Below are positions 11,297 through 37,120 of a stretch of 64,000 bases of DNA, in pieces. Numbering within the stretch: the stretch's first letter is position 1; each line of letters begins with the position of its first letter. This stretch comes from Terriglobales bacterium (GTDB lineage Bacteria; Acidobacteriota; Terriglobia; Terriglobales; Acidobacteriaceae), in contig DASRFG010000001.1 of the NCBI GenBank assembly GCA_035651655.1, forward strand, positions 32,001-96,000, in the 5' to 3' direction. Position numbers and translations under genes: made by a program. The notes beneath the pieces are model-generated. The model was not told the origin of the DNA and ran no database searches. It saw nothing but the letters and a program-made list of their open reading frames with translations.

Positions 11297-12313
11297 TTAC
11301 AGCAGCTGCGTTTCCCAGAGGTCGTGCAAGTGGATGATGCCCTGTAATTGACCCTTGCCGTTGACTACGGGCAGAGACGTGATCTTTTTCTCCTCCATAA
11401 TGGCGAGAGCGGCGGTGGCGAACTCGTCGGGCGAAATCACTTTGGGATTGCGGGTCATGCACTCCGCCGCGGCGAGGTCAAGCACGTCCTTGCCGCGACG
11501 CTCGAGCAATCGTCGCAGGTCGCCGTCGCTAATAACCCCGAGGAGGCGATCGCCCTGGGTCACCGCCGTGACCCCCAGCTTCTTGCGTGACATTTCATAA
11601 ATGACGTCCGGCATCCGGGTGCTCGGAGCTACCTTGGGAATCGCATCGCCGGTGTGCATGAGGGTTTCTACCCGCGCCAGACGTTTTCCCAGCTTTCCGC
11701 CAGGATGCAGGTTGGCGAAATCTTCTTCTTTGAAGCCGCGTCGCTCAGCGAGAGCCATCGCCAACGCATCTCCGAGCGCCATCATTGTCGTAGTAGAGGC
11801 AGTAGGCGCCAGACCTAGCGAGCAGGCTTCCTGATCGACCGAGCAATCAAGCGCAACATCGGCAGCCGCCGCGAGGGTGGAACGCTTAGCCTTCTCGCGA
11901 GCGTGAGTGCCCGCCGCGCCCAAACGGTCGCCGGTCAGGCTGATCAGTGGAATTTGCAGCCGCTTCATGGTAGCCAGCAATTGCAGGATTTCTTCGGTTT
12001 CACCACTGGAGGAGAGCGCGATCACGACGTCTCCGCGCACCAGCATGCCCAGATCACCATGTAGCGCTTCCGCGGGATGAAGAAAAAGCGCCGGAGTGCC
12101 AGTGGAACTGAGCGTCGCCGCGAGCTTCCGCGCAATCAGACCACTCTTGCCAAGGCCGGTGACCACAACCCGTCCCGCACAGCAGAAAAGTAGCTCGACT
12201 GCGCGGTTGAAAGCATCTGACATGTCGCCAGCCAGACGGTCCGCCAGGGCCCGCAACGCCTCCGCCTCGATGCGGACCACGCTTTCGCCAGTGGATTTCA
12301 TCCTGGTCTTCAT
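11297..12313 (-). CDS. kdsD: Arabinose-5-phosphate isomerase KdsD (KpsF/GutQ family)
   Basis: 338 aa; converts D-ribulose-5-P to D-arabinose-5-P, the first committed step toward Kdo. An N-terminal SIS sugar-isomerase domain (about 40-175: VVVTGLGKSGLIARKLAATLSSTG split as GLGKSGLIARKLAAT, then ALSSSGETEEIL, LHPAEALHGDLGML) is followed by a linker and two CBS domains (about 205-335, with GVISDGDLRRLL and IIHLHDLW). Length matches the 328-aa E. coli enzyme. Upstream of it, where kdsA would be expected to abut, lies the 1.5-kb REP/RAYT cassette; kdsA resumes beyond. In the same operon as proS downstream by 119 bases. Confidence 0.93.
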   Translation of the reverse strand: MKTRMKSTGESVVRIEAEALRALADRLAGDMSDAFNRAVELLFCCAGRVVVTGLGKSGLIARKLAATLSSTGTPALFLHPAEALHGDLGMLVRGDVVIALSSSGETEEILQLLATMKRLQIPLISLTGDRLGAAGTHAREKAKRSTLAAAADVALDCSVDQEACSLGLAPTASTTTMMALGDALAMALAERRGFKEEDFANLHPGGKLGKRLARVETLMHTGDAIPKVAPSTRMPDVIYEMSRKKLGVTAVTQGDRLLGVISDGDLRRLLERRGKDVLDLAAAECMTRNPKVISPDEFATAALAIMEEKKITSLPVVNGKGQLQGIIHLHDLWETQLL

Positions 12314-12353
12314 GCGAGAAGAAGGATGTTAGCAAAGATTGCGGATTTCACCA

Positions 12354-12800
12354 CAATCCCAGCTGCGGAGCAGCGGCACAATCCATTCCGCAGCTGTAGC
12401 GCCGCTCGTAGAAAGACCACAACCCAGCTGCGGAGCAGCGGCACAATCCATTCCGCAGCTATAGCGCCGCTCGTAGAAAGACTACAACCCAGCTGCGGAG
12501 CAGCGGCACAGCCGTTAGCCCCGCGCGTAAGCGCTGGGTAAGGTCGCCAACAATGCAAGCCCCGGAGGGCCGACATTCCTGCTTAAGGGCGTGAGCCCGG
12601 CGCTAAACGACCGTATCCAAAGCGGAGCAGCGGCACAATCCTTTCCGCAGCTGTAGAGCCGCTCGCAGAAAGGCTACAACCCAGCTGCGGAGCAGCGGCA
12701 CAGCTTTTAGCCCAGCGCGTAAGCGCTGGGTAGGAGTCGCCAACAATGCAAGCCCCGGAGGGCCGACATTCCTGCTTAAGGGCGTCAGCCCGGCGGCCCG
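12354..12800 (+). repeat. Left REP array flanking the RAYT transposase (65-bp period)
   Basis: The 20-mer CAGCTGCGGAGCAGCGGCAC occurs at 12360, 12425, 12490 and 12682, with a 5'-eroded copy whose register falls at 12617. All spacings within the two blocks are 65 bases. Between 20-mers is a second palindromic segment (TTCCGCAGCTGTAGCGCCGC, then TCGTAGAAAGACTACAACC). Twice (about 12509-12603 and 12702-12797) the array runs into a different, longer element with AGCGCGTAAGCGCTGGGTA, AATGCAAGCCCCGGAGGGCC and TTAAGGGCGTGAGCCCGGCG. The array is non-coding; reading frames across it are artefacts. It is the mirror image of the array at 13314-13835. Confidence 0.92.
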
Positions 12801-12869
12801 CGCCCGGTCACAATTCGACGTGACCTGCGCCACTGCAATGCCTTACCGATCCGCCCACGCTATCAAAAT

Positions 12870-13313
12870 ATGTCCCACACTTACGCCCGCAACTACGTTC
12901 ATCTCATCTTCTCCACCCGTGAACGCCATCGGAAACTGCTGGCTCCAATCCGGCCCGACCTTTGGGCCTACATGGGCGGGATTGCGCGTGAATATGGCAT
13001 CCACATGCTTGCCATCGGCGGAACTGAAGATCACATGCACATCTTGATCGGGCTGCCACCCAAGCTTTCGCTCGCACACGCAATGCGTGCGATTAAGGCG
13101 AATTCCTCGAAATGGATGAACGAGAATGGGCATCTATTCGCCTGGCAGGAGGGATATGCCGCATTCAGCGTGAGCGTTTCGAACCTTGCAAATGTGACCA
13201 AGTACATTGAGAACCAAGCCGTGCACCACGCCAAGAAAAGCTTCGAAGAGGAATTCTGCGGGTTCCTGGTACGGAATGGAATCGAATTCGACTCAAAATA
13301 CGTCTTTGGATAG
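12870..13313 (+). CDS. REP-associated tyrosine transposase (IS200-like Y1/HUH family)
   Basis: 147 aa, the full usual length for this small single-domain family. The HUH metal site is GGTEDHMHILIG (His-Met-His), and the candidate catalytic tyrosine lies in VTKYIENQ; N-terminal strand YVHLIFSTRER and C-terminal NGIEFDSKYVFG are typical. Such enzymes nick single-stranded DNA at palindromic REP sequences. The gene has no left/right IS200 ends of its own; instead it is bracketed by inverted arrays of palindromes, and the right array starts at the base after its TAG stop. That layout is the hallmark of a RAYT (tnpA-REP). All key residues are present so it may be active. It separates kdsD from kdsA. 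Confidence 0.9.
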   Translation: MSHTYARNYVHLIFSTRERHRKLLAPIRPDLWAYMGGIAREYGIHMLAIGGTEDHMHILIGLPPKLSLAHAMRAIKANSSKWMNENGHLFAWQEGYAAFSVSVSNLANVTKYIENQAVHHAKKSFEEEFCGFLVRNGIEFDSKYVFG

Positions 13314-13835
13314 CGCCGGGCTCACGCCCTTAAGCAGGAATGTCGGCCCTCCGGGGCTTGCATTGTTGTCGACCTTACCCAGCGCTTACGCGCTGGGCTA
13401 AAAGCTGTACCGCTGCTCCGCAGCTGGGTTGTGGTCTTTCTACGAGCGGCGCTATAGCTGCGGAAATGGATCGTGCCGCTGCTCCGCAGCTGGGTTGTAG
13501 TCTTTCTGCGAGCGGCTCTATAGCTGCGAAAATGGACTGTGCCGCTGCTCCGCGGCTGGAGCGCAATTCCTTCGAACCTCCCTGTAGGTCCGGAGACATG
13601 GACCGTGCCGCTGCTCCGCAGCTAGGTTGTAGTCTTTCTGCGGGCGGCTCTATAGCTGCGGAAATGGACTGTGCCGCTGCTCCGCAGCTAGGTCTGTGGA
13701 GTGATCTAAACCGTATTAATCATCCAAAGTCATTCCGAGCGGGCTTAGCAGGAATTCTTATTGGTCGTCTTCAAATGCGATTAACGTAGAGTATCCTCAC
13801 AGCGGAATGACAGACGTGCCGCTGCTCCGCGGCTG
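13314..13835 (-). repeat. Right REP array flanking the RAYT transposase, inverted (66-bp period)
   Basis: Inverted relative to the left array. GTGCCGCTGCTCCGCAGCTG or one-to-two-base variants occur at 13407, 13473, 13539, 13605 and 13671, each exactly 66 bases apart, plus one more distant copy at 13816. The part next to the transposase stop codon (13314-13410) is the reverse complement of the longer element seen twice on the left. One unit (about 13560-13600) has a different spacer (GCGCAATTCCTTCGAACCTC). About 110 bases (13700-13810) between the last two copies are unrelated AT-richer sequence. Ends 32 bases before the kdsA stop. Confidence 0.92.
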
Positions 13836-13866
13836 GCGCGGCTATCCGGCCGACGGCCGATGCGCG

Positions 13867-14697
13867 CTATTTCCCCGCCACGGCCTTCTGCACCGCCAGA
13901 ATCCCGGCCAGAACTTCGCGAAGGTTTTGTAGCGCCAAGGCATTTGGGCCATCGGATTTGGCTTTGGCTGGATTGTCGTGTACCTCAAGAAAAATTCCGT
14001 CCACCCCCGCAGCCACCGCCGCTCGGGCGAGCACGGGTATGAACTCGGGCTGGCCGCCGCTCACGGCGCCGTTGTTAGTGTTGTTTGCCGAGGGTAGTTG
14101 GACGGAGTGCGTGGCGTCGAACACCACCGGCGCGAACTGCCGCATGATGGGCAGCGAGCGCATATCCACCACCAGATTGGTGTAGCCGAAAGAAGCGCCA
14201 CGCTCGGTGACGAAGACCTGGTCATTGCCGGCGGCGCGGCATTTTTCAACTGCATGCCGCATGTCCCAGGGCGACATGAATTGGCCCTTCTTAATGTTGA
14301 CGGCGCGTCCGCTTTTGGCAGAGGCGACGATGAGATCGGTCTGGCGGCTGAGAAATGCAGGAATCTGTAGAACGTCCGCCACTTCGGCCACACGCTGCAC
14401 GTCCGCAGGCTCGTGCACGTCGGTCAAAATTGGCACATGAACCGTCCGCGCAACTTTCTTAAGGACGCGAAGCCCCTCGCCTACTCCCGGACCCCGGTAG
14501 CTCTTAAGCGACGTGCGATTGGCTTTATCGTAAGACGCCTTAAAGATGTAGGGCAGGCGCAGGGCGCGTGCGACGCCCGCAATCGATTCCGCCATTCGCA
14601 GTGCGTGATCTTCGCTCTCGATGACGCAAGGGCCGGCGATCAGGAAAAGACGCCCGCCGCCGATATGCACGCTGCCGACTTGGAAGTTCGACTTCAA
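13867..14697 (-). CDS. kdsA: 3-deoxy-8-phosphooctulonate (Kdo-8-P) synthase
   Basis: 276 aa; condenses arabinose-5-P (made by KdsD) with phosphoenolpyruvate to give Kdo-8-P. The TIM-barrel DAHP-synthase-like family signatures are all present: [64 protein letters not shown] and [11 protein letters not shown]. coli KdsA is 284 aa. Lies 57 bases downstream of pyrG on the same strand, and the CTP from PyrG is the co-substrate for Kdo activation by KdsB. The 1.5-kb repeat/transposase cassette separates it from kdsD. Confidence 0.96.
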
Positions 14698-17708: not shown

Positions 17709-18761
17709 CTACTTCAACAGGCCGCGCTGAGCAACGCTGATGTTGTCGCGAGTGCTGTTCTTTACGGCATACATCATCTCGTCGGCCTGGCGGATGATGT
17801 CATGCGCGCTCTGCGCATCGGCGGGATAAGTTGCCAATCCGATGCTGGCGCGGATATTCAGATCGAGGCCTTCCTCGTGGCAAAACGCACTCCCGCGGAA
17901 AAGGTCGAGGATACGCTTGGCGACCACAAGGGCGGAGTCTTTGCTGGTTTGTGGCAGCAGGATTACAAATTCATCGCCACCATAGCGAAACGCCGAATCA
18001 ATCAGCCGCAGGTGGGCCTTAATCGCGAATCCAATCTCACCCAGCAATTTGCTGCCAATCAAGTGGCCGTGTGTGTCATTGACCTGTTTGAAGTGATCGA
18101 GATCAATGAACATCACCGTAAACTCGTGCCCGAATCGGGAGGAGCGGTAAACCTCGCTCTCCAGCATCTTGTAGAGGTGCCGCGCATTGAACAGTCCAGT
18201 GCAATCGTCGGTGATGGTAAGCTCTTGGATTTTTTCCACCGACTTGGCATTTTCAATGGCAATGGCCGCGTAGTCACAAACCGTCTGTAAAAAGAAGAGC
18301 TCGCCGTCACCGAAGCCGTTCATATCCACATTGACCAGCTGAATCACACCTAAGACGCGGTGCTTGGACCGCAGCGGCACGGCAATGATGGTGCGCGTTT
18401 CCCACTTGGTGCTCTGATCAATGCGCTTGGCAAAGCGAGCATCGGTGTAGACATCGGGAACAATTACATGCTCGCCATGACGGGCCACCCATCCGGCAAT
18501 TCCCTCCCCCACCTTCAACCGAACGCTCTTCAAAGACTCGGCGGCGTCGCCTACCGCGATCGCAAAGTAAAGCTCGTCGCGTTCTTCGTCCACCATGAGC
18601 AGTGACCAGGTGTCTGGGCGGAAATACTCCGCCATTTTTTCCATGATGGTCTGCAGGATGGAATCAAGGTCGAGGGACGAAGTCAGGGCCTTGGCTACAT
18701 CGTGGAAAATACTCAGTTCCTGAATCTGCCGCTTTTTCTCGGTCCCAGTGGCCTCGGTCAT
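17709..18761 (-). CDS. GAF-GGDEF diguanylate cyclase
   Basis: About 350 aa from the ATG at 18761; a TTG at 18833 extends the frame by 24 residues that look unlike protein of this family. A GAF sensor domain (about residues 15-175; DLDSILQTIM, AGWVARHGEHVIVPDV, VPLRSKHRVLGVIQLV) is linked to a GGDEF domain. The active site is intact GGDEF at about residues 261-265, with the RxxD inhibitory I-site (RLID) exactly five residues ahead, so product-inhibited c-di-GMP synthesis is predicted. No membrane segment; likely cytoplasmic, sensing a small ligand through GAF. The PilZ protein at 1610 is a possible target but not linked by context. Confidence 0.9.
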   Translation of the reverse strand: MTEATGTEKKRQIQELSIFHDVAKALTSSLDLDSILQTIMEKMAEYFRPDTWSLLMVDEERDELYFAIAVGDAAESLKSVRLKVGEGIAGWVARHGEHVIVPDVYTDARFAKRIDQSTKWETRTIIAVPLRSKHRVLGVIQLVNVDMNGFGDGELFFLQTVCDYAAIAIENAKSVEKIQELTITDDCTGLFNARHLYKMLESEVYRSSRFGHEFTVMFIDLDHFKQVNDTHGHLIGSKLLGEIGFAIKAHLRLIDSAFRYGGDEFVILLPQTSKDSALVVAKRILDLFRGSAFCHEEGLDLNIRASIGLATYPADAQSAHDIIRQADEMMYAVKNSTRDNISVAQRGLLK

Positions 18762-36966: not shown

Positions 36967-37120
36967 AGACGTAGCTTGCTACGTCTTCTTCCTTAGCAGG
37001 ATCCAGCCCGTGAGGGCGGCATAGCTTTTAGCTTAGGGCGTAAGCCCTGGGTAGGGCCGAGTAAAGCAGTAAGCCCCGGAGGGGCGACACAACATCCCGC
37101 AGGCCGTAAGCCCTGCGGGC
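36967..37120. repeat. REP-type palindromes upstream of nrdJ, related to the RAYT arrays
   Basis: AGACGTAGC/GCTACGTCT is a perfect inverted repeat at 36967-36986. Then 37021-37120 holds a second block: TTTTAGCTTAGGGCGTAAGC, CCTGGGTAGGGCCGAG, AGCAGTAAGCCCCGGAGGGG and CCCGCAGGCCGTAAGCCCTG. It is a diverged copy of the longer element in the arrays at 12.5-13.4 kb (TTTTAGCCCAGCGCGTAAGC...GGGTA...GCAAGCCCCGGAGGGCC). It lies between the 159-aa gene and the nrdJ RBS. No cobalamin riboswitch signature was seen. Confidence 0.8.

Follow-up and report, generated by a model that had tools for sequence, protein, structure and literature searches.

Inverted three-hairpin ends of the Acido-Lenti-1 family flank a subclass 1.2 Y1 transposase gene in a probable transposon-like element of a Terriglobales bacterium

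Among the TnpAY1 proteins, subclass 1.2 is distinguished by a Y---Q--HH signature, a WQ motif, a median length of 148 residues and a low copy number; its members belong mainly to Cyanobacteria and Bacteroidetes, generally lack typical terminal structures, do not share the properties of insertion sequences and were reported without associated DNA structures (PMC6006769). Y1 genes between inverted repeats are known as TIRYT/TIRtrons, with one TIR family of K. versatilis being repeated in its genome (PMC3733652); 20 of the 26 TIRYTs fall into class 2.1 and the others into classes 2.2 and 2.5 (PMC6006769). Acido-Lenti-1 (RF01687) was proposed from comparative genomics and is listed in tabular form as probably RNA (rated "y") and not cis-regulatory (PMC2864571).

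The stretch of DNA analysed here (the window; 64,000 nucleotides) covers positions 32001-96000 of contig 1 in a genome of 4.07 Mb in 39 contigs (G000). Between its kdsD-like and kdsA-like genes, a transposase gene present as a single copy in the genome is surrounded by hairpins designated H1, H2 and H3:

11297-12313, minus strand: kdsD-like gene (SIS and CBS domains), left neighbour of the Y1 ORF
12344-12358, no strand: outermost left inverted motif GATTTCACCACAATC, complement of approximately 13692-13706
12360-12509, minus strand: left array of three H3 copies (12360, 12425, 12490) at 65-bp spacing
12490-12602, minus strand: the outer one of the two complete left ends (H3-H2-H1) arranged in tandem, a 193-bp direct copy of the inner end
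12617-12636, minus strand: degenerate H3 copy (...CCGCTTTGG), lying outward of the inner left end by 65 bp
12682-12795, minus strand: inner left end (H3-H2-H1), with Acido-Lenti-1 at 12683-12730 (44.3 bits; RF01687 cut-off 37)
12870-13313, plus strand: IS200-like Y1 transposase, TnpAY1 subclass 1.2 (147 aa; H55/H57, Tyr112, YIENQAVHH)
13314-13426, plus strand: right end (H1-H2-H3) mirroring the left ends, with Acido-Lenti-1 at 13378-13425 (43.2 bits)
13407-13690, plus strand: right array, in which five H3 copies recur every 66 bp and are separated by spacers of 46 bp
13816-13836, plus strand: isolated copy of the H3 hairpin, situated between kdsA and the right array
13867-14697, minus strand: kdsA-like gene (DAHP synthase I family), right neighbour of the Y1 ORF

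The original prediction of a Y1 transposase with intact HMH site and tyrosine agrees with the ORF at 12870-13313, in which the EDHMHIL and YIENQ motifs are intact. The protein passed the NCBIfam IS200/IS605 model NF033573 (69.7 bits, cut-off 55), matches Pfam Y1_Tnp with 85.7 bits and failed the curated RAYT model NF047646 (29.1 bits, cut-off 80). Its Y motif, YIENQAVHH, corresponds to Y---Q--HH and not to the RAYT-type Y---NP. Across an alignment of 35 homologues, the residues H55, H57, W92, Q93, Q116, H119 and H120 never vary and Y112 hardly does; in a tree that also includes 17 RAYTs from the same set of genomes, a 100/100 branch parts the homologues from the RAYTs. The best PDB matches of an AlphaFold model (mean pLDDT 89.6) are TnpA of ISDra2 and IS608, the RAYT structure 4er8 ranking lower. 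With all features of the subclass present (Y---Q--HH, WQ, 147 aa, low copy number), the protein is a TnpAY1 of subclass 1.2 and not a RAYT; the latter label, given to it in the original prediction, had to be abandoned. Homologues (E <= 1e-5) are encoded in 27 of 61 related genomes, none of which is from the genus of the window genome, and a contig search yielded named relatives at two loci, in an Acidobacteria MAG and in one Bacteroidota strain. The window genome also has a true RAYT gene (G000:C2:154802-155191, L180), without Acido-Lenti-1 nearby.

On both sides of the transposase gene, the hairpins follow each other outward in the order H1 (TGTCGGCCCTCCGGGGCT), H2 (CCCAGCGC-TTAC-GCGCTGGG-CTA) and H3 (CCGCTGCTCCGCAGCTG), forming an end module of about 90-100 bp, and at the right end all three fold as single-stranded DNA stem-loops. 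The complete order is (H3-u-H3-u-H3-H2-H1)(d-u-H3-H2-H1)-gene-(H1-H2-H3-u-H3-u-H3-u-H3-u-H3), with d standing for the degenerate H3 and u for the spacer. A longer element doubled on the left and inverted on the right, as had been described before, was recovered as direct copies at 12543-12602 and 12736-12795 (98 % identical, 193 bp apart) and as inverted arms at 12451-12605 and 13311-13465 (96 % complementary). The outermost inverted pair (12344-12387/13663-13706; 44 nt, 84 % complementary), the motif at 12344-12358 included, may represent the outer limits of the element.

A Rfam scan of the window placed RF01687 above the cut-off on both flanks of the gene (12683-12730, minus strand; 13378-13425, plus strand), and the outer left end contains a sub-threshold match (12491-12538, 33.2 bits). 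The hairpins are thus those of the Acido-Lenti-1 "RNA" of Rfam, which the original prediction had overlooked. The model spans H2 and H3 and leaves out H1, which accompanies most of the copies read. The window genome contains 11 copies above the cut-off, and the family is present in 36 of the 61 related genomes (E <= 0.001; up to 76 copies each), with multiple copies in many of them; among the genomes examined, copy number ranges from 1 to >100 per genome. The H2 stem is canonical in 438 of 472 pairs across 23 stem variants and the H3 stem perfect in 56 of 59 across 14 variants, a retention of stems despite sequence change which would fit protein-bound single-stranded DNA hairpins as well as RNA. 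Inspection by eye revealed mostly YC before H1 and H3, CTTA or CCTA before H2 in many copies, and no GT[AG]G foot of REPs in the copies read. No universal motif was recovered in a search beyond H3, a loose GGYGAGAAAT(A)CC occurring in just 3 of 102 flanks. Sequences close to this motif lie shortly beyond H3 in G056 (L205-L213), in G057 (L284) and at 12344-12358 of the window, and such an outer motif may be the true element end in some lineages. Elsewhere in the window (37005-37117, minus strand), a second solo three-hairpin end of Acido-Lenti-1 type (27.7 bits, below the cut-off) is located just upstream of a 1008-aa ORF, with a further H2-like hairpin alongside.

The association between gene and hairpins was analysed for 61 homologous Y1 genes in 60 loci, using about 1.2 kb per side where the contig allowed and the full Rfam library. 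Counting as subclass 1.2 the 57 genes with >= 37 % identity (24 Acidobacteriota genomes), 50 have an outward-facing Acido-Lenti-1 within 250 bp on at least one side and 38 on both (left 43, right 45), at median distances from the gene of 56 bp (left) and 49 bp (right). By chance, such a neighbour is expected for about 0.36 of the 61 genes. Acido-Lenti-1 was absent from all 20 true RAYT loci taken as controls from the same genomes, and no outward copy was found within 250 bp of the four more distant Y1 genes. Alignment of left against right flanks yielded mirror-image ends, which at most loci start no more than about 10 bp from the ORF and stop just past H3. No nearby match up to E = 1 was obtained for 7 of the 57 genes, some of which (e.g., L141 and L148) nonetheless possess inverted ends.

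Gene and hairpins also co-occur at genome level: of 61 genomes, 23 contain both, 13 Acido-Lenti-1 only, 1 the gene only and 24 neither (Fisher p = 1e-6; Spearman 0.76). The 13 genomes counted as lacking the gene were defined by a threshold of E <= 1e-20, and a profile search of nine of them retrieved only a gene fragment in G009 or weak matches, several of which were RAYT genes. Genomes such as G004, with 46 Acido-Lenti-1 copies and no subclass 1.2 gene, are left unexplained by the model proposed below. Two isolated fragments spanning just residues 1-58 of a subclass 1.2 transposase were observed in G070 (C166 and C170). Outside the Acidobacteriota, one Bacteroidota genome (Plebeiobacterium marinum) harbours a 37 %-identical gene between inverted repeats of 76-92 nt, which fold into the same succession of three hairpins, with CTA again following H2; another seven end repeats are dispersed elsewhere in this genome (E <= 1.5e-4). 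Taken together, this suggests that what is called the Acido-Lenti-1 "RNA" is in fact the terminus of a mobile-element family.

Copies without a gene occur as inverted six-hairpin units (H3'H2'H1'-H1H2H3, about 166-217 bp) in G056, G059 and G067, where 31 of 34 testable copies are paired in this way; such a miniature unit amounts to the two ends with the gene missing. Solo H1-H2-H3 ends of about 90 bp, with H1 mostly about 21-22 bp before H2 and similarity ceasing after H3, were read in the window genome, G006, G026 and G058; the inverted doublet was not found in the tested copies of these four genomes and of G031. G067 contains 97 copies and one clear subclass 1.2 gene, which is itself bracketed. 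Since hairpin units are dispersed in the window genome and in related genomes, the earlier idea of a mobile cassette was right, the locus consisting of a transposase with intact motifs between inverted arrays of probable cognate hairpins. In many G067 copies (L235-L254), an additional hairpin motif (GGGCGTGTTGCCCA..TGGGCAACACGCCC) is present on the outside, and a different palindromic repeat (GGGCTTTGCACAAAAAATACATCG...GCAAAGCCC) is found inside or beside miniature elements at L254 and L251. An apparent nested insertion into the H2 loop of another copy (L238 of G067), with what looked like a 4-bp GTCA repeat, is retained as a lead only, the similar loci L236 and L242 not being clean.

Two congeneric species, G057 and G065, differ markedly in copy number (75 vs 8). 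At one orthologous site they differ by about 353 bp, with G057 having two tandem ends there, and the 7-bp sequence GGCTAGC, found once in G065, stands at each of the two junctions in G057. From these two genomes, the site may reflect either gain of the segment by insertion or its deletion between short repeats. IS200/IS605 elements insert next to a short target motif and are not known to duplicate the target, whereas this site has the GGCTAGC direct repeat, which the model does not explain and which would count against it. A second presence/absence site (G057 C292 vs G065 C8) was rejected as a clean empty site, as 143 bp of other sequence are located there. A further dispersed repeat, unrelated and about 245 bp long (L286:3151-3397 in G057), occurs at >20 places in G065, with many copies being 90-95 % identical.

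The unit of the window arrays is H3, the outermost hairpin, followed by a spacer of 45/46 bp which folds no better than shuffled sequences. On the left, the predicted recurrence of the 20-mer CAGCTGCGGAGCAGCGGCAC every 65 bases was verified by exact copies at 12360, 12425 and 12490; a further exact copy is situated at 12682, and one with 4 mismatches at 12617, 65 bp from it. On the right, the reverse complement recurs five times every 66 bases as had been stated (13407, 13473, 13539, 13605 and 13671; one copy is exact and each of the other four has 1 mismatch), with an additional solo copy at 13816. The claim of a strict period holds for the unit lengths of 65 and 66 bp (TRF scores 299 and 357) and not for the sequence throughout: the unit at 13539-13604 is only 64-69 % identical to the others, while the remaining units share 85-97 % identity within and between arrays. 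A search of the genome, as originally proposed, demonstrated that the 20-mer is not confined to the locus, there being exactly two copies outside the window, both on contig 14; the reversed control pattern gave 0 matches genome-wide.

On contig 14, a 365-bp block of the left array of the window, junctions included, is present with 93 % identity between genes for an MFS transporter and an amidohydrolase, and no subclass 1.2 gene is located there; among the junctions found again is that at the degenerate H3 copy (12617-12636). Array blocks have therefore been copied as units. End-family copies on this contig (L287; G000:C14:13166-13405 and 18124-18171), which include the 193-bp doubling and lack a transposase, face each other 5 kb apart. 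Tandem end arrays are also found beside other subclass 1.2 genes, with periods of 74 bp (L123), 145 bp (L120) and 67 bp (L150). Contig 25 of the window genome bears a 78-bp-period Acido-Lenti-1 array without a subclass 1.2 gene (L294; G000:C25:30974-31253). G057 (C132, C233, C235, C250 and C172) was noted to have composite arrays in which Acido-Lenti-1 copies converge and the period is about 177 bp, and a related 590-bp block occurs in G065 (C61). Tandem clusters of REPINs next to RAYTs have already been described (PMC3116915), so that arrays in themselves are no novelty; this removes the basis for regarding transposase-associated arrays as a departure from known RAYTs.

Protein class, end structure, co-localisation and co-occurrence, dispersed gene-less copies and block copying, all established computationally, make it very probable that the locus represents a transposon-like element belonging to the IS200/IS605 superfamily and comprising one subclass 1.2 Y1 HUH transposase and inverted three-hairpin ends, with the H2+H3 "RNA" being transposon-end DNA. 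A genuine small or cis-acting RNA, with which the transposase travels or through which it regulates, would accord with the rating of RF01687 as probably RNA (PMC2864571) and with the covariation of its stems; however, hairpins bound by a Y1 protein on single-stranded DNA would covary likewise, the Rfam model lacks the H1 that goes with most copies read, and an RNA gene is hard to reconcile with mirror-image copies flanking a gene, with occurrence on both strands, in tandem arrays and at 1 to >100 copies per genome, or with 75 vs 8 copies in two species of one genus, so that this reading is very improbable. Bidirectional terminators of the neighbouring genes, unrelated to the transposase, would likewise be G+C-rich stem-loops in intergenic DNA, but no T-run follows H3 in the copies read and hairpin position and orientation track the transposase gene, leaving this proposal with next to no probability. 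A true RAYT (TnpAREP) with REP arrays is largely refuted and hardly credible: membership in the Y1 family, a single gene copy with dispersed palindromes and the known REPIN clusters beside RAYTs (PMC3116915) are outweighed by the score of the RAYT model, the Y---Q--HH motif in place of Y---NP, the 100/100 branch and the absence of these repeats from the RAYT locus of the window genome itself (C2:154802).

A further alternative is limited to the arrays and does not conflict with the transposon-like element: the 65/66-bp arrays could be ordinary tandem repeats formed by replication slippage or unequal recombination, the transposase being uninvolved in their growth. Head-to-tail units of fixed period and 85-97 % identity (one unit excepted) are the expected outcome of such processes, and the locus-specific periods (~67, 74 and 145 bp in L150, L123 and L120) fit independent local events. 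On the other hand, the units consist of hairpins from the ends of the transposon itself, other subclass 1.2 genes also have arrays beside them, one unit kept its length and not its sequence, and slippage alone does not give a whole block with junctions at a second locus. The chances of this explanation are rated as even; the arrays may have been lengthened by slippage, recombination or transposase action.

Regarding the transposon-like element, analogy to the IS200/IS605 family predicts that the transposase would recognise the hairpins on single-stranded DNA, cleave near them via Tyr112 with HUH metal coordination, and move the whole element or, in trans, its gene-less derivatives. In the window copy, the ends have been enlarged into tandem arrays of H3 plus spacer (65/66 bp), the whole left end has been doubled and an array block has been copied to another locus. 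One may tentatively speculate, while considering it rather unlikely, that subclass 1.2 enzymes maintain a REP-like system of their own, which spans phyla and has inverted ends of three hairpins, and that they also build the tandem end arrays themselves (e.g., if end units are inserted again and again as single strands next to the enzymes' own ends), so giving rise to hairpin families that are annotated as RNAs today.

A likely substrate is hereby assigned to a transposase subclass published as having none, and a Rfam RNA family of unexplained role is reinterpreted as transposon-end DNA. If this is right, pipelines reporting Acido-Lenti-1 "sRNAs" count ends of mobile elements. Since genomes carry from one to >100 copies, activity, target choice and array growth are directly testable.

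Compared to the closest described systems, the protein shares Y---Q--HH, WQ, length (147 vs a median of 148) and low copy number with TnpAY1 subclass 1.2 (PMC6006769), but, in contrast to the subclass as published, its Acidobacteriota members and one Bacteroidota member possess conserved inverted three-hairpin ends. With the IS200 group (tnpA only) it has in common the passed IS200 model, the fold of ISDra2 and IS608 TnpA and an element length of about 0.6 kb, with hairpins at the ends. IS200/IS605 elements (subclass 1.1) have non-inverted ends and several near-identical copies, whereas here the three-hairpin ends are inverted, the copies diverged and a direct repeat of 7 bp is present at the one polymorphic site. 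RAYT/REP systems and REPINs (PMC3116915) resemble the present one in the single-copy gene, dispersed inverted hairpin pairs and tandem clusters by the gene, but the transposase class differs, the ends have three hairpins and no GT[AG]G foot was seen; six-hairpin units thus correspond to REPINs, and solo ends to single REPs, in organisation and not in family. TIRYT/TIRtrons (PMC3733652), which include an Acidobacteria group, likewise have a Y1 gene between inverted repeats, but their Y1 protein is of class 2 and the one described here of class 1 type, the distinction resting on protein class and not on TIR sequence; a GGGGWSAS motif is frequent in TIRYTs. TnpAY1 class 3 (PMC6006769) also occurs in Acidobacteria and has atypical hairpins in hundreds of copies (Solibacter), yet neither its Y----Q motif nor its CnGA foot was found here. 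As to the Acido-Lenti-1 RNA, H2+H3 match above the gathering cut-off, but what Rfam holds to be an sRNA gene behaves here as transposon-end DNA. The window locus is accordingly an array-ended example of a well-supported element, and the wider result is the link between subclass 1.2 and Acido-Lenti-1.
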